In this document: positions 1,887 to 13,185 of the stretch, one piece after another
How positions within the stretch are numbered: the first letter of the stretch is position 1
Layout of the letters: each line of letters opens with the position of its first letter
Source: Clostridia bacterium
Lineage (GTDB): Bacteria; Bacillota; Clostridia; Oscillospirales; CAG-272
NCBI GenBank assembly: GCA_017456005.1
Contig: JAFTLJ010000095.1
Location: forward strand, 1 to 35,485
DNA: 35,485 nucleotides
Direction of reading: 5' to 3'
Translations under genes and position numbers: made by a program
Notes under the pieces: model-generated
Seen by the model: the letters and a program-made list of their open reading frames with translations, nothing else
What the model was told of the DNA's origin: nothing
The model's database searches: none

Positions 1887-3020
1887 ATGAATTTGAATTT
1901 TGCTGAAAATTTTAAAAATCTCCGTAAACAAAAGGGAATAACGCAAGAGAAGATTTCCGAAGCTTTAGGGGTTTCCAGCCAATCTGTTTCGCGCTGGGAG
2001 CTCGGTATTTGCTACCCCGATATAGAGATGCTGCCTTCTATTGCAAATTATTTTGGTGTGAGCGTGGATAATCTTTTGTCTAACGATGTTGATTCCAAGA
2101 AAAAGGATCTTAAGCTTTTCAAAGAAAAGATGGCGTCTTTTGATGAATATACAGAGGAACTGATCGAATTTGTAAGCGAATACTGCAAAAAATACCCCGA
2201 TGTGGATTATTATGCTTATGAGCTTATGTGGGTGATAAAGGGCTACATTGTGGTCGATGAAGAAAAAACCGGAAAATATATGCCCGTTTTGCTGAAAAAC
2301 GCAGAAAGGCTTCTACCCACACAGTATCGCACAGCTGTTATTCATATTATGGCGGTGGTAAGCCCCGAAAATGAGCTTGAAAAATGGCTGAATATGGCTC
2401 CGTACAGCGGGTTCAGCCGCCGCGCCTGCCTTGTTTTCCGCGCCGCAGCCCATGACGAGCATGAAACGAACGATATACAGCAGGGGCTGGAAGTGTTTGA
2501 AACATTTGCAATCCAGCTTGACAGACGTTTTCCCGATAAGCTCGGCTCCGCCAAAAAAGCTTTGTTCCAAAAATCTGTTTTGCGAACAATAGAATCCTTT
2601 GGCGAAAACGGCGAAATTCCCGATGCATGGAAAGCCTTCTATGCTTATAAGCAGCTTGTTTTGGCGGCTTGCCTTTTTGCACAGAAGAAAACGGAGGAGG
2701 CTTGGGAAAATTTCGATTCCGCTATTGAAAAGTGCAAATATATATATTCGCTCGAGGAAAAATGGCTTTCCGTTGGCGGCAGGCTATTTGCAAATATAAA
2801 GGTCAGCAAGGATTGGAATTTTGCTGTCGATGAAAAGGGAAACGAGCATAGATTGTTTGGAATAACGTATCGCTCGTTTTCCGATATGAAGCTTATATAC
2901 GATCTGCTGACGTATCCCTGCTGGTCTTGGTTCAACTCTGTAAGAGAAACTGAAAAATATAAAGCCGCCGTGAAATGGGTGAGTGAGGCAAAAGAAAATA
3001 TAAAAGACAGCAGAATATAG
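1887..3020 (+). CDS. XRE-family transcriptional regulator with a large C-terminal domain
   Basis: Residues 4-60 form a Cro/CI helix-turn-helix (LRKQKGITQEKISEALGVSS, then SVSRWE and a PDIEMLPSIANYF helix). The remaining ~310 residues are helix-rich and may form TPR-like repeats, but I recognise no named domain, so the signal sensed is unknown. I chose the ATG at 1887 because it follows AGAAGGGA and starts directly before the HTH. An in-frame GTG/ATG-less extension back to 1758 has no HTH content and crosses the promoter. The protein is 377 aa and cytoplasmic. It is a single-gene transcript with its own promoter and a strong terminator at 3022-3053. The target is unknown; autoregulation would be usual. 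Confidence 0.85.
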   Translation: MNLNFAENFKNLRKQKGITQEKISEALGVSSQSVSRWELGICYPDIEMLPSIANYFGVSVDNLLSNDVDSKKKDLKLFKEKMASFDEYTEELIEFVSEYCKKYPDVDYYAYELMWVIKGYIVVDEEKTGKYMPVLLKNAERLLPTQYRTAVIHIMAVVSPENELEKWLNMAPYSGFSRRACLVFRAAAHDEHETNDIQQGLEVFETFAIQLDRRFPDKLGSAKKALFQKSVLRTIESFGENGEIPDAWKAFYAYKQLVLAACLFAQKKTEEAWENFDSAIEKCKYIYSLEEKWLSVGGRLFANIKVSKDWNFAVDEKGNEHRLFGITYRSFSDMKLIYDLLTYPCWSWFNSVRETEKYKAAVKWVSEAKENIKDSRI

Positions 3021-3021
3021 T

Positions 3022-3053
3022 AGCAAAAAACACCGCCGCCGCGGTGTTTTTTG
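3022..3053 (+). terminator. Intrinsic terminator after the XRE gene
   Basis: GCAAAAAACACCGC pairs with GCGGTGTTTTTTG around CGCC, ending in six T. Confidence 0.85.
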
Positions 3054-3059
3054 TCATTA

Positions 3060-3088
3060 TTGACATATTTACAGCTTTATGGTAAAAT
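3060..3088 (+). promoter_or_regulatory. Sigma-A promoter of the sirtuin/radical SAM operon
   Basis: A perfect TTGACA (3060-3065) and TAAAAT (3083-3088) have a 17-bp spacer, 40 bp upstream of the first gene of the operon. No other promoter is evident before 6846. Confidence 0.75.
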
Positions 3089-3128
3089 ATCAATATGATA
3101 AAAATAACGATGGGGGCGAAAGAAGACG

Positions 3129-3683
3129 ATGGGAAATCCCGAATTTGATTTTGAATTTATGGGTAACAGCACGCGAAATCCGCTTGAAAATATGCCCAAA
3201 AAAGAAGGAAAAATTGTTTTTGAAGATAATACGACCAATAAAAAGGAAGTAACGCTTACTCTTTCCGATAAAGAGGTGGAAAAGCTCGCCGAGGAACTGA
3301 ACAGGGCTTTGGATGAATACAGGAGGGAGCAGGAAGAAAAAAGAAGAAAAGAAACCGAAGAAACGCTGAATGCCATAAGAAAAAACTTAGAGGAGCTTAA
3401 ACGCAGATTGCCTCAAAAGCTGAATTTCGTTTTTGCAAACGGGATGAATCTTTTTCAAGGTGTGCGAATAATGTTGCCTTCGTTCTACGGATATGGATAT
3501 GGCATGTATATTGTTTCTGCCTGCGTTTCTTATGAGGGGAAGGAATACGTTATATTGCGTCCGGAATATGTAAATCTATACACGGTATGTTACGCGTCGA
3601 GCGGAATGCTTTTTCAGGAGATGAATATGAACATCAGCAATGCTATTCTAAATTATTGTACGAGCCAATATTGGCTTGTGTGA
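3129..3683 (+). CDS. Hypothetical coiled-coil protein, first gene of the radical SAM operon
   Basis: This 184-residue protein is not recognised. Residues about 45-95 are a strongly charged Glu/Lys/Arg helix with coiled-coil character. Residues 98-184 form a separate, aromatic and hydrophobic C-terminal part containing FYGYGYGMY and YEGKEYVILRPEYVNLY, which reads like a small beta-rich domain. There is no signal peptide and no clear membrane span. The ATG follows GGGGGCGAAAG. Its stop codon overlaps the ribosome binding site of the sirtuin gene (ATG 7 nt downstream), so translation is probably coupled. Position suggests a partner of the downstream enzymes, but no function can be assigned. Confidence 0.75.
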   Translation: MGNPEFDFEFMGNSTRNPLENMPKKEGKIVFEDNTTNKKEVTLTLSDKEVEKLAEELNRALDEYRREQEEKRRKETEETLNAIRKNLEELKRRLPQKLNFVFANGMNLFQGVRIMLPSFYGYGYGMYIVSACVSYEGKEYVILRPEYVNLYTVCYASSGMLFQEMNMNISNAILNYCTSQYWLV

Positions 3684-3690
3684 GGTTACT

Positions 3691-4431
3691 ATGACCGACA
3701 TAGAAAAAGTACGTAAAATTATAAAAGAGAGCGAAAACATCGTGTTTTTCGGCGGCGCCGGCGTTTCGACCGCCAGCGGTATACCCGATTTTCGCGGCAC
3801 GGGAGGCTTGTATAACAATGCAGATAGTTTTTCTGAAGCGCCCGAAACGATACTGCACAAAAATTATTTGCTTGCTAAGCCCGCAAAATTTTATGAATAT
3901 TATAAAAAATGTATGCTCTACCCGAATGCCGAGCCGAATGGCGCGCACAAAGCGCTCGCTCGCCTGGAGGAAAAGGGCAAATTGAAAGCTGTTATTACGC
4001 AGAATATAGACGGGCTTCACAGCGCGGCGGGCAGCAAGAACGTAATAGAGCTGCATGGCTCTGTTGCGCGCAACTACTGCATAAGGTGCGGAAAAGAATA
4101 TCCGCTTGCCCACGTTGCAGAGGCAGAGAATGTGCCGCTTTGCACCTGCGGCGGAATGGTGCGCCCCGACGTGGTTATGTACGGCGAAATGCTGGACGCA
4201 GACGCTTGGCAGCGCGCACAGCAAGCGATCTTGCGAGCAGACGTGCTTATAGTGGGCGGAACCTCGCTTACGGTTTACCCTGCGGCAGGCTTGCTCGATT
4301 ATTACTATGGCGACCATTTGATAATTATAAACAAAACCCCCACTCCTTTCGACGATAAGGCGGAATTTGTACTCCGCGAGCCTATCGCGGAGGTGCTGGA
4401 GGCTGTAGTACGGAGGCATTTATGGGGATAA
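3691..4431 (+). CDS. cobB: Sirtuin, NAD-dependent protein deacylase
   Basis: This 246-residue sirtuin has every core motif: NAD-binding GAGVSTASGIPDFRG (22-36), TQNIDGLH (103-110), catalytic His122 in ELHGS, and a zinc module with Cys130/Cys133 and Cys151/Cys153, the second pair being C-x-C rather than the more usual C-x2-C. Family knowledge: it removes acetyl or other acyl groups from lysines using NAD+, in the cytoplasm. I chose ATG 3691; a TTG at 3676 lies inside the upstream gene. Its 3' end overlaps the radical SAM start by 10 nt, so the two are translationally coupled. Sirtuins are usually solitary housekeeping genes, so the coupling here is notable. Whether its substrate is an operon partner is unknown. 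Confidence 0.93.
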   Translation: MTDIEKVRKIIKESENIVFFGGAGVSTASGIPDFRGTGGLYNNADSFSEAPETILHKNYLLAKPAKFYEYYKKCMLYPNAEPNGAHKALARLEEKGKLKAVITQNIDGLHSAAGSKNVIELHGSVARNYCIRCGKEYPLAHVAEAENVPLCTCGGMVRPDVVMYGEMLDADAWQRAQQAILRADVLIVGGTSLTVYPAAGLLDYYYGDHLIIINKTPTPFDDKAEFVLREPIAEVLEAVVRRHLWG

Positions 4432-5813
4432 AAAACAAAATAGCGCAATATAAGGAATGGAAAAGCGGCGTGAAGCACTGCACCTTCAACCCCGACGGCC
4501 CGGGCGTGGTGCGCATACACATGGTGCCGCCGAAATTCAATCTTTTCAAAAACGCGCCGTACATAGTAATCCTAAACGGCTACTATCTTTTGCCCATCGG
4601 CTATTCGTGGGCGATACTGCTTTCCACATTTATAGAAGAAGTAAACACTTTCGACGGCAAGGAAATGAGCGAAGAAGATGTGAACAGCGTATTTGAAAAT
4701 ACCCTAAAAAAAACGCGTCACGTATATTCGCACGTGCCGGAAGATGTCCTTAACGAGGATTTAGAGGAAATTTTAGATATAATTTTCGAGATCGCACACG
4801 GAGGAAGCGTAGACGCGGAAATAGAAAAGCTTTCCGTCCGCGCATATGCCGGGCGAATGAGCGCACCGCACAGAATGGACCTTATGGTAAGCGCGATGAC
4901 GGATGAGTGCGGCGAATGGAAATGCAACCAGAAATGCATTTTCTGCTATGCGGCAGGGCAAGAATACGCAAAAGTGCGCGAACTTTCCACGGAAGAGTGG
5001 AAAAAGGCTATAGATAAGTTGCGTGCGGCAGGCGTGCCCATGCTCACGTTCACGGGCGGCGAGCCTACGCAGAGGGAAGACATAGCAGAGCTTGTGGAGC
5101 ACGCAAAATGGTTTATAACGCGCCTTAACACAAACGGCGTGAATGTTACAAAGGAGCTTGCGGCAGAGCTAAAAAAAGCAGGGCTCGACAGCATGCAGGT
5201 GACGCTTTATTCCCATGACGAGGCGGTGCACAACACGCTGGTGGGCAGCGCACACTTCAAAGATACCGTGGAGGGTATAAAGAACGCCGTGGCGGCAGGG
5301 CTTGATATAAGCGTGAACACACCTCTTTGCAGAAAAAACGCAGATTATGCCGAAACACTAAAGTTTATACACTCGCTCGGCGTGCGATTTGCTACGGCAA
5401 GCGGGCTTATTTGCACGGGCACAGCGAGCGCAAACCACGAAAACTACGATTTGACCGAAGAGGAGCTTTACAGCGCTGTACGTGCCGCAAAAGCTTTTTG
5501 CGATATGCACGATATGGAGATGGACTTTACCTCCCCCGGGCTTATAGCAAAGGAGAAGTTAGAGGAAATAGGGCTTAATGTGCCTATGTGCGGCGCGGCG
5601 CTCAGCAATATGGCAGTAGCGCCCGACGGCACGGTGGTGCCGTGCCAAAGCTGGCTTTGCGAGGGTGCGAGGCTTGGAAATATACTTACAGACAGCTTTT
5701 CGCGCATATGGAAGCACAAAACGGCGCTCGCTTTGCGCAAAATGAGCGAAAAAGAAGCGCTTTCCTGCCCGTTCAGGCGCTCTTTGGGAAAGGAGAAGAA
5801 AAATGGCAAATAG
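4422..5813 (+). CDS. Radical SAM enzyme with a partial SPASM-like C-terminus
   Basis: 463 residues. The radical SAM [4Fe-4S] motif is Cys168-x3-Cys172-x2-Cys175 (CNQKCIFC), followed by FTGGEP (210-215) for SAM binding and a TIM-barrel region to about residue 370. The C-terminal part has CGAALSNMAVAPDGTVVPC, then QSWLC and a final SCPF, which resembles a SPASM/twitch auxiliary cluster region with fewer cysteines than a full SPASM. The first ~150 residues contain LNGYYLLPIGYSWAILL and may be a peptide-recognition domain of PqqD/RRE type (inference). GGAGG precedes ATG 4422. It overlaps the sirtuin gene by 10 nt and the tail-protein gene by 11 nt. Enzymes of this type commonly modify Cys-containing peptides, so the Cys-Ala tail of the next protein is the obvious candidate substrate. 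Confidence 0.92.
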   Translation: MGIKNKIAQYKEWKSGVKHCTFNPDGPGVVRIHMVPPKFNLFKNAPYIVILNGYYLLPIGYSWAILLSTFIEEVNTFDGKEMSEEDVNSVFENTLKKTRHVYSHVPEDVLNEDLEEILDIIFEIAHGGSVDAEIEKLSVRAYAGRMSAPHRMDLMVSAMTDECGEWKCNQKCIFCYAAGQEYAKVRELSTEEWKKAIDKLRAAGVPMLTFTGGEPTQREDIAELVEHAKWFITRLNTNGVNVTKELAAELKKAGLDSMQVTLYSHDEAVHNTLVGSAHFKDTVEGIKNAVAAGLDISVNTPLCRKNADYAETLKFIHSLGVRFATASGLICTGTASANHENYDLTEEELYSAVRAAKAFCDMHDMEMDFTSPGLIAKEKLEEIGLNVPMCGAALSNMAVAPDGTVVPCQSWLCEGARLGNILTDSFSRIWKHKTALALRKMSEKEALSCPFRRSLGKEKKNGK

Positions 5814-6846
5814 ACGAAAAAAAGAACCGGATAGCTTTTCCCCCGAATACGTAAAGAAGAACAGAACGTTCCCAAAGGCAAATACGGTCTGGCTCGTTAT
5901 TTTGGTTATCTTGCAGACGGCGGCGCTCATTTTTGCCATAGCCTATACCCCTAAACCGCAGGACGTTATAAAGGAATACGGCATAACCGTAACTCCTTTG
6001 GAAGATGGCACGCTCGATATAGAATATTCCTTTGTTTGGAACGCGCTCGACACGGGCGAGGAGCTCACCTGGGTGGAAATAGGTATGGCGAACCCGAATT
6101 TTACTATCTATAAAAATTCGCTTTCGCAGGAAATAAACCGTGCGGAAAAGTATATGGATTACGCGCGAATATATTTCGAGCGCGCATACAAGGGCGGCGA
6201 AACGCTGGAATTTTCTTTTAAAATAAACCAGGGCGGCTTGCTTCATAGCCAAGGCGACGGCTATTTCTACTCTTTCGTTCCGGGTTGGTTCAACTCCACG
6301 CCTGTGGAGCATTACACGTTCCGCTGGGATAAATCGAGCCTTATAAAAACCGCCAACGCAAATACTGTGCGCGAGGGATATTATATTTGGGAAGGCGAGA
6401 TGGATTGCGGCACTTATGTTATGATGAATGTAAACTACGCCGAGCGTGCTTTCGAGGGCATCACGCCTACAATCTATATACCGTTTGATTCAGAAGATGT
6501 ATATAATCAGCTTGCAGACGACAAAGCGGGTATAGTATTCTTTATGATTATAATTATTCTCGGCATAGGCGTAGCAGAGCTTTATATTGTGGACAGCTTC
6601 GTTTCCTACAACCGCGGCAGAGGTTTTCTTTCGGGCTATGGCCACCACGTTCACCTCTACGGCAGGTATAACCGCAGATATGCGGATGCGAGAGATAGGC
6701 ATATGGCACAAAGCAGCAGTAGCAGGGGCGGCTTCCGCGGCGGCGGTTGCGCGTGTGCTTGCGCCTGCGCTTGCGCGGGCGGCGGCAGAGCAGGCTGTAG
6801 CCAAAAGGATACGTATGAAAACAAAAAAGTTAAATACAAAAAGTGA
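5803..6846 (+). CDS. Membrane protein with (Cys-Ala)5 tail, putative radical SAM substrate
   Basis: 347 residues. A charged N-terminus is followed by a membrane span (about 28-48), a ~190-residue extracytoplasmic beta-rich domain resembling the DUF2207 N-terminal region (ITVTPLEDGTLDIEYSFVW), a second span (about 242-262), and a ~85-residue Gly/Ser/Arg/Tyr-rich C-terminal tail. The tail carries five alternating Cys-Ala pairs, Cys316, 318, 320, 322 and 324, then GGGRAG and Cys332, and ends in a lysine-rich segment. Only one other cysteine exists in the protein. The alternating pairs use mixed codons (tgc/tgt, gcg/gct/gcc), so this is selected protein sequence, not a slipping DNA repeat. The start overlaps the radical SAM gene by 11 nt. 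I recall similar CACACACAGGGRAGC-type tails in other Firmicute proteins, but know of no described function. Likely modified, cross-linked or metal-binding. Confidence 0.85.
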   Translation: MANRRKKEPDSFSPEYVKKNRTFPKANTVWLVILVILQTAALIFAIAYTPKPQDVIKEYGITVTPLEDGTLDIEYSFVWNALDTGEELTWVEIGMANPNFTIYKNSLSQEINRAEKYMDYARIYFERAYKGGETLEFSFKINQGGLLHSQGDGYFYSFVPGWFNSTPVEHYTFRWDKSSLIKTANANTVREGYYIWEGEMDCGTYVMMNVNYAERAFEGITPTIYIPFDSEDVYNQLADDKAGIVFFMIIIILGIGVAELYIVDSFVSYNRGRGFLSGYGHHVHLYGRYNRRYADARDRHMAQSSSSRGGFRGGGCACACACACAGGGRAGCSQKDTYENKKVKYKK

Positions 6847-6849
6847 TGC
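6831..6849 (+). repeat. Left arm of a 19-bp inverted repeat flanking the 7043-7576 gene
   Basis: TAAATACAAAAAGTGATGC occurs here across the stop codon of the Cys-Ala tail gene and, inverted and identical, at 7713-7731. Both copies are followed on their own strand by a hairpin containing ACCTGC/GCAGGT. Confidence 0.8.
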
Positions 6850-6891
6850 CAAGGGGTGTCTTCCATAAAGCAGGTTTTACCTGCCGAGAAA

Positions 6892-6930
6892 CAAAAGGAG
6901 TACGAGCGTTTTGTTCGTACTCCTTTTTTA
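6892..6930 (+). terminator. Terminator of the sirtuin/radical SAM operon
   Basis: AAAAGGAGTACGA pairs with TCGTACTCCTTTT around an 8-9 nt loop and ends in T6. A smaller hairpin (GCAGG-TTTT-CCTGC type, 6870-6885) precedes it. Confidence 0.85.
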
Positions 6931-6947
6931 TACTATCGGGCGGTAAT

Positions 6948-7040
6948 AAGCCTCCCTTTACACAAGGGAGCCTTTCTTTATGTTCATCTATGACTTGTCA
7001 ATTTTCCTGACAAGCACTGCTTTTGTGGACACAAAAGCCT
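6948..7040. repeat. Three successive small hairpins between convergent genes
   Basis: AAGCCTCCCTT/AAGGGAGCCTT (6948-6975, one mismatch), CTTGTCA/TGACAAG (6994-7014) and GCTTTTGT/ACAAAAGC (7019-7038, followed by CTTTTT on the plus strand) lie in a row. The last may act as a back-up terminator. The first resembles short dispersed hairpins common in gut Firmicutes (from memory, not tested). Confidence 0.5.
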
Positions 7041-7042
7041 TT

Positions 7043-7576
7043 TTAGCATCTATAAAAACAAGAAATTAACTCAACTGCAAAATAGATTGCGGATGCAGTA
7101 GCTGCAACAATCATTAAAGCTGCTACAATCCAAATAAATATTTTTATCCACTTCGACTTTGTTTCTTTCGTTAAATGTATAATTGACACTGCAATATAAT
7201 CTATAACCAAAGCAAATAGTATTAAAATAGCAATAGCGGATATTTTATCATTAAGTGTATTTGCATAAACAATAAATTTATTTGTTTCTATTCCCCAAGG
7301 TTCAATAGGTATATCCGGAATTATCAAGAAAACTATGTTTGTCAGTAAAACAATTCCTATGCCGAGATAAAAAGGAATGCCACAAAAAGACATCTTGTTT
7401 TTGTCTTTCTTCAAGCGTCTGGTTCTTCCGTAAATCGACATGCTGTCTAACAAAACAATACGCAAAACGGTATTGTTGATGGAAATATATTTTCCTTTTT
7501 GATAACGGCTATCATATCCTGCAAGAAGTCGGACAAAAAATATTGATAAAGCAAAAATCAAGTACACCATTACCAT
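7043..7576 (-). CDS. Hypothetical four-helix membrane protein
   Basis: The 177-residue protein has about four hydrophobic segments: the N-terminus, IVLLTNIVFLIIPDI, ISAIAILILFALVIDYIAV and IFIWIVAALMIVAATASAIYFA. Basic loops (RRLKKDKNK, KETKSKWIK) suggest where the cytoplasmic sides lie. No family is recognised. I prefer ATG 7576, which sits 7 nt after AGAGGTGG; a GTG at 7588 lies inside that ribosome binding site. Its base composition is more AT-rich than the operon on its left. The gene is bracketed by a perfect 19-bp inverted repeat (6831-6849 and 7713-7731), which hints at insertion or inversion of this segment. Confidence 0.7.
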   Translation of the reverse strand: MVMVYLIFALSIFFVRLLAGYDSRYQKGKYISINNTVLRIVLLDSMSIYGRTRRLKKDKNKMSFCGIPFYLGIGIVLLTNIVFLIIPDIPIEPWGIETNKFIVYANTLNDKISAIAILILFALVIDYIAVSIIHLTKETKSKWIKIFIWIVAALMIVAATASAIYFAVELISCFYRC

Positions 7577-8458: not shown

Positions 8459-8482
8459 AAAAAAGCACTCTTAGTGCTTTTA
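8459..8482. terminator. Bidirectional terminator
   Basis: AAAAGCACT-CTT-AGTGCTTTT, with A- and T-runs on both sides, serves the XRE gene (plus) and the DUF2752 gene (minus, whose stop codon overlaps it). Confidence 0.8.
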
Positions 8483-8902
8483 TACCGCTGTCGGCGCGAG
8501 GAGAACAAACGGGAAAACGGGTATGTTGCGCAAGATCCAGTATGCTATTATTACTGCAACCACCGTTATACCGAACCATTTGCTCTTTACTTCGGGAAAT
8601 GGCAAAACATCCTTGCCGAAAACAAAGCCGAGATACAGCTTTGCCACGTAGTATATGAGGAACGGCAGAGAAATGAACATAAGCGGCTGGTAGCGGAAGG
8701 CGGCGTAAAAATCGAGGTGCAAAAGCGCGAGAAAACATCTGCCGGAACCACAGCCTGCACAGTACAGCCCCGTTATCTCATAAAAAAGGCATGGCGGCGT
8801 TTTGCCAAGAAGAAAGAATACTGTGGCTATGAGCATGGCGCCTGCAGGCACGCCGATGCTTATAAGAAGGCGCAGTTTTTTGTTTTTATAATATTTTTCC
8901 AT
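8480..8902 (-). CDS. DUF2752 family membrane protein
   Basis: 140 residues with three to four membrane spans. The diagnostic DUF2752 signature is present: CLFYEITGLYCAGCGSGRCFLALLHLDFYAAFRYQPL, that is a Cys-x(n)-TG-x2-C-x-GCG-x2-R block followed by the D-x3-AF-x2-P motif (the motif is spread over residues about 38-74). The family's function is unknown. The ATG follows AAAGGAGCT. It lies 66 nt downstream of the zinc-ribbon/CD225 gene, with a hairpin terminator between them, so it may depend partly on read-through. Zinc-ribbon CD225 proteins and DUF2752 proteins are, to my knowledge, often found near each other, which supports a functional link. Confidence 0.88.
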   Translation of the reverse strand: MEKYYKNKKLRLLISIGVPAGAMLIATVFFLLGKTPPCLFYEITGLYCAGCGSGRCFLALLHLDFYAAFRYQPLMFISLPFLIYYVAKLYLGFVFGKDVLPFPEVKSKWFGITVVAVIIAYWILRNIPVFPFVLLAPTAV

Positions 8903-11831: not shown

Positions 11832-13169
11832 TTATTCTGCTATGCGAATTTCGTCGAAATCGCCCGTTTCACATTGTGCGCTGGTGTTGTCGCCAACAGC
11901 AAGGACCTTGCCGTATTTATTAAGGGCGACTGTGTGGTTTCTGCCTGCGGCGATGGCGCGTATACCCGTCCATTTCTGCACGTTACATTGACCGTAGCCG
12001 TTGTAACCCGTGGCGATACAAGTGCCGTCTTTGCAAAGCCCTACCGTGTGGTAGTTGCCTGCGGCAATGGCGCGTATACCGCTCCATCTGCCTACCTCAC
12101 ATTGGTTGTTGGCGTTGTTGCCCATAGCAACGCAGCACCCGTTTTTGCGCAAGCCCACTATGTGCAGTCTGCCTGCGGCAACGTCTGCAATACCTGCCCA
12201 GTGCTCTGCGCCGCCTTCGCCGTCTATGTTTATGCCTGCGGCGCATACCGTGCCATCGGAGCGCAAGCCTACGGTATAGTTATTGGATGCGGAAATGGCA
12301 ACAATGTCTTGCCAATCTTCCACGTTGCATTGGCCGTATGTATTGTCGCCCGTGGCAACGCAGGTGCCGTCCAGGCGCAAGCCTACTGTGTGTGCCACGC
12401 CTGCGGAAATATTGCATATTGTGCTCCATCTGCCGACATCGCATTGGTTATTGCCGTTGTAGCCAACGGCATCGCACGTGCCGTTGCGGAAAAGCGCTAC
12501 CGTGTGGTAGGAGCCTGCGGTGACAGCCATAACGTTTTCCCATTCCTCTACGTTGCATTGGCCGTAGTTGTTGTGACCTGTGCAGAGCACGTTGCCGTTT
12601 TCGCGCACAGCCACCGTGTGCAGACCGCCTGCGGAAATAGTCGTGGTGCCTTCGCGCGGCTTTGCGGGAATTGGGTTGAAGGAGGGGCGTTCTATCATGG
12701 TGGTTTTTGCAAACTCTTCCTCCTCTTCCTTTTCATCTGCGAGAGAGGAGATCGCCTGCAGGTCCTTGGGAAGGGTTATTTCACGTGTGAAATCTTCCGA
12801 CATGGGCGAGGTGCGCTTTACCCCTACCTTCAGCACCTCTGCCTTGGTTTCTGTTTCGTGGGTTTCCGTTTTTTCCTCTTCGGGCTTTGTATATTCCTCT
12901 GTATAAGTGGAAAAAGCGGCAGGGGCGTACATATCTGTGTAGGAAAGCTTATCTTCTTTTTCTTCTGCTTCTTCTTTTACGGCGGCTCTCGCTATTTTCC
13001 AAAACGGAATTATTAAAACGAGCGAAGCCACCGCAAGGGCGATGAGTACGAACGAAACGGTAATGTTTTCTTTAATAACGAGAAGCGCGAGAGCAGAAAA
13101 TATCAGCGCTTCTGCAATAAAGACTATACCCGATAGTATTTTTAGTTTTTTACCTGTTTGTTCTGACAT
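11832..13169 (-). CDS. Membrane-anchored RCC1-like repeat protein (seven 38-residue repeats)
   Basis: 445 residues. Two membrane spans (about 11-32 and 38-57) are followed by an acidic, low-complexity linker (about 62-160, Glu/Lys/Thr-rich) and seven RCC1-type repeats starting at residues 178, 216, 254, 292, 330, 368 and 406. The period is exactly 38 residues throughout, with the consensus I-[SA]-A-G-x2-H-T-V-[AG]-L, G-T-C-x-A-T-G-x-N and GQC-x-V. A seven-bladed beta-propeller is the natural prediction. Most repeats carry Cys in the GTC and QC positions. ATG 13169 follows GAAAGGGTGA. It lies 16 nt downstream of the SGNH hydrolase gene and is probably co-transcribed. Function unknown; propellers of this kind are usually binding platforms. 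Confidence 0.85.
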   Translation of the reverse strand: MSEQTGKKLKILSGIVFIAEALIFSALALLVIKENITVSFVLIALAVASLVLIIPFWKIARAAVKEEAEEKEDKLSYTDMYAPAAFSTYTEEYTKPEEEKTETHETETKAEVLKVGVKRTSPMSEDFTREITLPKDLQAISSLADEKEEEEEFAKTTMIERPSFNPIPAKPREGTTTISAGGLHTVAVRENGNVLCTGHNNYGQCNVEEWENVMAVTAGSYHTVALFRNGTCDAVGYNGNNQCDVGRWSTICNISAGVAHTVGLRLDGTCVATGDNTYGQCNVEDWQDIVAISASNNYTVGLRSDGTVCAAGINIDGEGGAEHWAGIADVAAGRLHIVGLRKNGCCVAMGNNANNQCEVGRWSGIRAIAAGNYHTVGLCKDGTCIATGYNGYGQCNVQKWTGIRAIAAGRNHTVALNKYGKVLAVGDNTSAQCETGDFDEIRIAE

Positions 13170-13185
13170 ATGAAAAATCACCCTT

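Follow-up and report, generated by a model that had tools for sequence, protein, structure and literature searches.

Radical S-adenosylmethionine (SAM) enzymes of the SPASM/twitch type that mature thioether-containing peptides, such as SkfB, CteB and AlbA of the sactipeptide and ranthipeptide systems, combine a radical SAM core with a C-terminal auxiliary-cluster region and are encoded next to a Cys-rich substrate. The products of the radical SAM cross-linking systems known so far are mostly small peptides. We describe here a gene pair from a Clostridia bacterium that resembles these systems, consisting of a radical SAM/SPASM enzyme of 463 amino acids (4422-5813, + strand) and, overlapping with it, a membrane protein of 347 amino acids with a tail of alternating Cys and Ala, the Cys-Ala comb (5803-6846, + strand). 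The pair lies at the end of a run of four + strand genes (3129-6846) on contig JAFTLJ010000095.1, of which a stretch of 35,485 nucleotides was analyzed; this whole stretch is called the window, and all coordinates refer to it unless a locus is named.

As described in an excerpt of PMC6231123, SkfB, CteB and SuiB consist of a precursor recognition element (RRE, for RiPP recognition element, where RiPP denotes a ribosomally synthesized and post-translationally modified peptide), a radical SAM domain and a twitch or SPASM domain. The pair described here resembles a sacti- or ranthipeptide system but misses two of its features, the curated enzyme family and the short precursor: the enzyme stays under every NCBIfam cut-off among its best 25 models, an RRE is not detected by profile, and in place of a short leader-bearing precursor the substrate would be a membrane protein of about 300-490 amino acids. 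The radical SAM/SPASM family of the ACGX system (TIGR04340) is similar by name, its partner being a repeat with Ala-Cys. Two of the related enzymes (family f114) score 64 bits with this model against a cut-off of 400, and it is not among the best 25 models of the window enzyme. Another relevant case is QhpD with its substrate QhpC, which we take to be a soluble subunit without a Cys-Ala comb. An excerpt of PMC7876137 indicates that chemistry of this kind can act within a protein, as with QhpD, and that QhpC, unlike the tail protein, has a 28-residue leader which is cleaved. A more distant parallel is a mapped, uncharacterised radical SAM group associated with peptides having a repeated Asp-Cys motif (PMC9062424, in excerpt). 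In open-licence papers, preprints excluded, no description of the enzyme/tail pair was found, and none of the Pfam and NCBIfam models among the matches listed names it.

Enzyme and tail protein occur together

In all 41 copies examined, comprising the window, 29 loci, L096, L142 and nine loci from outside the class, the enzyme gene adjoins a gene for the tail-protein domain (L, G and f numbers designate loci, genomes and families). One of these copies comes from an unverified record (L142); the others are spread over 11 families within a single phylum. The Cys-Ala tail is visible in 38 of the 41 loci; the other three (L022, L029 and L032) end at contig ends before the tail, and at L033 only the first piece of the tail gene adjoins the enzyme gene. 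With start codons of both genes chosen by script, 24 of the 28 tail genes that lie downstream in the set of 29 loci begin within 20 nucleotides of the enzyme gene. The original prediction had tied the radical SAM enzyme to a Cys-Ala-tailed protein on the basis of the window alone; this tie extends to every copy, and homologues of the enzyme do not lie mostly apart from such proteins.

The enzyme is present in 5 of 59 near relatives, in 10 of 391 genomes of the class, in 16 of 200 genomes of family f52 and, by profile search, in 10 of 269 genomes of the phylum; the sets overlap, and the window's own genome is counted in all except that of f52. When these 391 genomes of the class were searched in reverse, for the tail protein, it was found in 11, namely the ten enzyme genomes and G569, in which the contig (L096) starts within the enzyme gene and the tail gene comes next. 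One genome (G413) has an extra tail gene (L095) at a contig end, with no neighbour that could be judged. At the nine loci outside the class, the profile of the tail alignment (A4) finds the domain with E values of about 4e-49 to 2e-53 in f155 and of 2e-11 to 7e-15 in f114. The distances between partner proteins correlate (r = 0.84 for 24 pairs, with none of 2000 permutations as high), as shared descent alone would also have them do. The enzyme alignment (A3) contains the window and 27 of the 29 loci, L032 and L063 being omitted; A4 has 26 rows, to which L028 contributes two and from which L022, L029, L031, L032 and L033 were omitted as cut or interrupted. We consider it almost certain that enzyme and tail protein are a dedicated, functionally linked pair.

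Some copies depart from the simple arrangement. L028 has two tail genes in tandem (4782-6709) upstream of a single enzyme gene, one of them with Tyr replacing a comb Cys. At L033 (3663-6568 of that locus) the tail gene is in two pieces, between which lies a stretch with open reading frames on the opposite strand, the neighbouring enzyme gene being intact. At L032 there is an in-frame TAA inside the enzyme match, and the tail gene is cut within its Gly-rich part by the contig end.

The Cys-Ala tail

The tail protein of the window ends in CACACACACAGGGRAGCSQKDTYENKKVKYKK, in which the comb and the Gly-Cys end of the core, CACACACACAGGGRAGC, occupy positions 6748-6798 (+ strand) according to translation, alignment and codon spread. 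The Cys-Ala tail first noticed in this membrane protein is real, as the translation confirms. All 37 uncut tails, which come from 36 loci, have the same core: Cys-Ala repeats, two small residues, then Gly or Arg, at most three further residues and Gly-Cys. The pattern used for this count was drawn up after the tails had been seen. The last 45 residues up to the core end contain 5-10 Cys. In the 26-protein alignment C318, A319, A321, C322, A323, C324, A325, G328, R329, G331 and C332 are invariant. Each of four comb Ala positions is encoded by all four Ala codons among 27 codon strings, which were selected by the comb pattern, so that only their codon spread is a result; two of them come from the same L033 tail, and the L028 tail with Tyr in the comb falls outside the pattern and is excluded. 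The tail is more than chance, because the comb varies little or not at all in protein sequence while its Ala codons vary.

Beyond the comb the tails differ. After the core most Clostridia copies continue with [ST]xKDFY, the f155 tails read CACACAGG[GR]GAGC, the f114 tails finish at the very C-terminus with SSCACACACACASSGGCT, and three Clostridia tails (L058, L060 and L062) have SSG instead of GGG. Within 30 residues of the core end the tails have between 0 and 8 Lys, with none in the three f114 tails; the lysine-rich end that had been put forward as a sirtuin target is therefore not a conserved feature. A strict DNA pattern (CACACAGGGR) matched only this genome among 398 genomes of the phylum, a misleading result, because nine distant enzyme genomes in that list, although unmatched, carry Cys-Ala tails with GGRG, GGGG or SSGG behind the comb.

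The membrane protein that carries the tail

The tail proteins have a hydrophobic start, a conserved external-type domain, a second membrane helix, a basic stretch and the Cys-Ala tail. Two exceed the usual length and are fused to a TPM domain in one frame, so that the comb is internal (L154:3367-5439 and L155:3446-5284). In the window protein hydropathy places the second helix at about residues 244-262 (6532-6588, + strand), with the chain beyond it predicted to be cytosolic. Since in 37 of 39 tail proteins the net charge after the helix is higher than before it, the tail should face the cytosol, the compartment of the enzyme. Between helix and tail 13 of 39 proteins have a Cx2C...Cx2C motif, and the L053 protein is over the cut-off of Zn_Ribbon_1. 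The window tail protein, like the coiled-coil protein at the start of the gene run, matches no Pfam or NCBIfam family over cut-off.

The family is weakly related to the DUF2207 membrane proteins (PF09972). At E ≤0.1 eight of 26 tail proteins match this family, and L025 passes its gathering score (26.5 against a cut-off of 24.4), the only one to do so among L025, L027, L055, L060, L063 and L096; the window protein has no DUF2207 match at E 1, nor does PF09972 match any f155, f114 or L142 tail protein. A PF09972 scan of 21 genomes, 19 of them pair-carrying, yielded three tail proteins, of which one passes. The scanned genomes also contain three ordinary DUF2207 proteins (L134, L135 and L136), with Gly-rich ends in L134 and L136 but not in L135; the comb, by which the tail proteins differ, is not seen in the displayed ends of these three. 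The sole hint to a DUF2207 function that we found is a deletion mutant of Streptococcus mutans in which acid and peroxide tolerance and biofilm formation were lowered (PMC10457818).

A further likeness to the DUF2207 surroundings is seen at the six f155 loci: a gene with a TPM domain is present at five and a LemA gene at four, those not seen lying beyond contig ends. Two tail proteins (L156 and L157) have sub-threshold matches to the YxzE-like putative bacteriocin family PF25184 (23.2 and 19.6 bits against 40), which cover the helix and the Gly-rich part.

The radical SAM/SPASM enzyme

The window enzyme scores 93.1 with the Pfam model Radical_SAM (cut-off 29.5) and 36 with SPASM (cut-off 21.5), and SPASM was found in all 28 enzymes tested. 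Its CX3CX2C motif is formed by C168, C172 and C175, and its twitch/SPASM region contains C390, C408 and C449; these six Cys are invariant in all 38 aligned enzymes. A further SPASM set, CxxC...C, is present in the f155 and f114 members (L156 lacking one Cys of it) and absent from the Clostridia members, which thus have a reduced, twitch-like Cys complement. The enzyme tree has three groups, in which the window enzyme stands beside L021 and then the other f1 members; its deep join, where long branches meet, is unsafe. The closest solved structure is that of SkfB (E 1.4e-20), followed by tetraether synthase, with PqqE and BtrN also among the closest and anSME, 5v1q and CteB (5wgg) among the other matches. 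The fold of the N-terminal domain (residues 1 to about 150) was not recognised from the sequence; that of the f114 enzymes has, by eye, a PqqD-like look.

Proposed modification and its alternatives

Whereas the pairing is observed, the chemistry and function proposed for it are inferred. The tail is very probably what the enzyme modifies, and the two genes are probably a modification system in which the enzyme is the dedicated maturase of the neighbouring membrane protein. Enzyme and membrane protein would be co-produced from their overlapping or almost touching genes, and the N-terminal domain of the enzyme may hold the substrate. An auxiliary iron-sulfur (Fe-S) cluster may have an open site at which a tail thiol binds; such a site is reported for CteB and is apparent in SkfB (PMC6231123, in excerpt). 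The 5'-deoxyadenosyl radical would then abstract hydrogen from tail residues, the Cys sulphurs would form intramolecular thioether links of the sactionine or ranthionine type, and the Cys-Ala strand with its Gly-Cys end would become a cross-linked knob. Ruminococcin C has links from Cys to Glu, Asn, Arg or Lys, and in one variant to Ala (excerpt of PMC6779426); by this precedent, Ala, Gly, Arg or Lys residues close to the comb could serve as acceptors. The modified protein would remain in the membrane, perhaps within an envelope or stress module, and would not be a released peptide.

That the chemistry on the tail is thioether formation we hold to be close to an even call, leaning slightly to the negative. 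Several observations weigh against the proposed system. The comb Ala are conserved as strongly as the comb Cys in the 26-protein alignment, for which thioether links to Cys alone give no explanation. The solved structures matched by the enzyme include those of enzymes whose substrates are not peptides (tetraether synthase, BtrN, cytosylglucuronate decarboxylase and MoaA). In the best 25 NCBIfam models of each enzyme tested no cut-off is reached, the window enzyme scoring at best 109.6 bits against 500 and further enzymes at most 144 against 525. When the N-terminus was compared by hhalign with those of 15 SCIFF maturases in search of an RRE, the probability was 3%, and up to 4%; other searches with it gave nothing significant, the best solved chain being of the MarR type with a whole-chain E of 0.012 and no significant stretch. 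As to the module, no TPM or LemA gene was found in the 35 loci outside f155, which confines the envelope idea to one family.

The strict alternation of Cys and Ala, with the Ala conserved as much as the Cys, would also suit an epimerase that puts every other residue of the strand into the D form, comparable to the proteusin epimerase PoyD with its 1,3 pattern. According to an excerpt of PMC8326336, epimerase catalysis needs a critical Cys, and the epipeptide epimerase EpeE has two [4Fe-4S] clusters, while the proteusin epimerases have the radical SAM cluster only; in the enzymes described here three Cys of the auxiliary region are invariant. Epimerization moreover leaves the conserved comb Cys unexplained, and we regard it as unlikely. 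Alternatively, the comb could be a thiolate site for a metal or an Fe-S cluster, or a redox relay, which the enzyme loads, repairs or uses with its residues staying unmodified. With the CxC spacing an extended strand would present many of its thiols on the same side, and the Cys number of the tails and the Cx2C...Cx2C motif of some proteins point in the same direction; but the radical SAM motif, needless for a scaffold role, is intact in 38 of 38 aligned enzymes, and this explanation appears rather improbable to us.

Finally, the protein could be the precursor of a RiPP, from which the tail is cleaved and exported as a modified peptide, the remainder being an oversized leader. The position of the f114 tails at the very C-terminus and the relation of the enzyme to peptide maturases would agree with this. 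Against it, no shared exporter or leader protease was seen in the neighbourhoods of the 29 Clostridia loci, the partner retains its external-type domain and membrane helix, and the L154 and L155 proteins have the tail in an internal position; we find such a precursor very improbable. A dedicated maturase acting on the tail of a resident membrane protein is the reading that we retain. The extension of this reading, in which the cross-linked comb forms a thioether-ribbed knob or redox element of lasting nature, connects the external domain with the cell interior and represents a new class of modification, is speculative and perhaps doubtful.

The sirtuin and the other neighbouring genes

The third gene from the end of the run encodes a sirtuin (3691-4431, + strand, from an ATG; a TTG at 3676 is a possible alternative start). 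With 182 bits for SIR2 (cut-off 24) and 318.2 for NCBIfam NF001752 (equivalog cut-off 221) it is, judged by family score, an ordinary NAD-dependent protein deacylase. A tblastn search of the 41 loci with the window sirtuin found it next to the pair in two, the window and L021, which belong to sister species of the same genus and have kept the arrangement, with enzymes 90% and sirtuins 86% identical. Of 33 genomes searched with PF02146, 25 had a match, all of them among the 30 in which the pair is present. The five pair-carrying genomes with no SIR2 match are G012 and G510, which have a completeness of 94 and 98%, and G003, G586 and G521, which are less than 90% complete. Only in G000 and G001 does a sirtuin stand beside the pair; elsewhere it is on another contig or hundreds of kilobases (kb) away, about 465 kb in G529 and 670 kb in G1080 where a contig is shared.

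Since the window genome has exactly one SIR2 gene, a housekeeping deacylase is the simpler reading. The sirtuin is probably such a gene, now upstream of the pair in one recent lineage as a passenger, and as a partner of the pair it was rejected. The original prediction had coupled it to the pair and had counted its confinement to this one genome's copy of the locus as evidence against that coupling; this is nearly but not strictly the case, as the sister species alone shares it. That sirtuin and radical SAM enzyme act jointly on the tail protein, by lysine deacylation and radical modification, is extremely improbable: the overlapping genes in the window and L021 speak for it, and the rarity of the arrangement, the five pair-carrying genomes with no SIR2 match, the differing upstream neighbours elsewhere and the variable lysine content of the tail end speak against it.

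The first gene of the run (3129-3683, + strand, 184 amino acids) has a charged, coiled-coil-like stretch, as judged by eye, and no relative in the other 40 loci, the search having covered the loci and not whole genomes. Like the sirtuin gene it stands outside the conserved unit, which is formed by enzyme and tail protein; the proposal that all four genes are one system is not confirmed. Elsewhere the upstream neighbours include membrane proteins, a gene that by eye resembles peroxiredoxins (L024) and, at L031, one with the metallo-beta-lactamase fold. Five loci (L027, L050, L056, L061 and L063) have in common a membrane protein of 276-336 amino acids, 1-191 nucleotides upstream of the enzyme; two were tested and neither exceeded a Pfam cut-off. 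In the 29 Clostridia loci no neighbour family besides the tail protein occurs in more than five.

On recheck the junctions between the four genes were exactly those reported before, +7, -10 and -11 nucleotides in order. Upstream of the run lies a promoter-like site, TTGACA-17-TAAAAT (3060-3088, + strand), with 11 of 12 consensus matches and a TG before the second hexamer. It has the top score of 11 such sites in 2700-7100, where shuffled sequences have 7.0 on average, and is preceded by a terminator-like hairpin (3034-3046), one of 8 against 5.5 in shuffles. The site, behind which all four genes lie, is a consensus match only. Elsewhere in the window, the - strand encodes a protein with RCC1-like repeats (HTVGL...ATGDN, by eye; 11832-13181) and a small protein with CLFYEITGLYCAGCGSGR (8480-8902), which we assume to be DUF2752-like.

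A mobile element as carrier of the pair was rejected as well. At E 1e-30 there was no match among 72,556 plasmid records and one among 50,697 phage records, L142 (MT837216.1), an unverified 7.4-kb faecal contig named Bacteriophage sp., which carries the pair together with other genes that look bacterial and chromosomal by eye. Viral contigs gave two core-only matches of 37 and 27% identity, and a scan of genome contigs gave as its only match that of the sister species, JAFTOK010000168.1 (L021), from roe deer caecum.

Implications

Found in no fewer than 11 families of a single phylum and outside the curated enzyme families, the pair points to a radical modification at the inner end of a membrane protein. 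If this is true, Clostridia and their relatives would have a dedicated radical SAM enzyme that cross-links the cytosolic end of a membrane-anchored protein. Knowing how the tail is modified would help to explain such proteins, and perhaps their DUF2207, TPM and LemA neighbours too.

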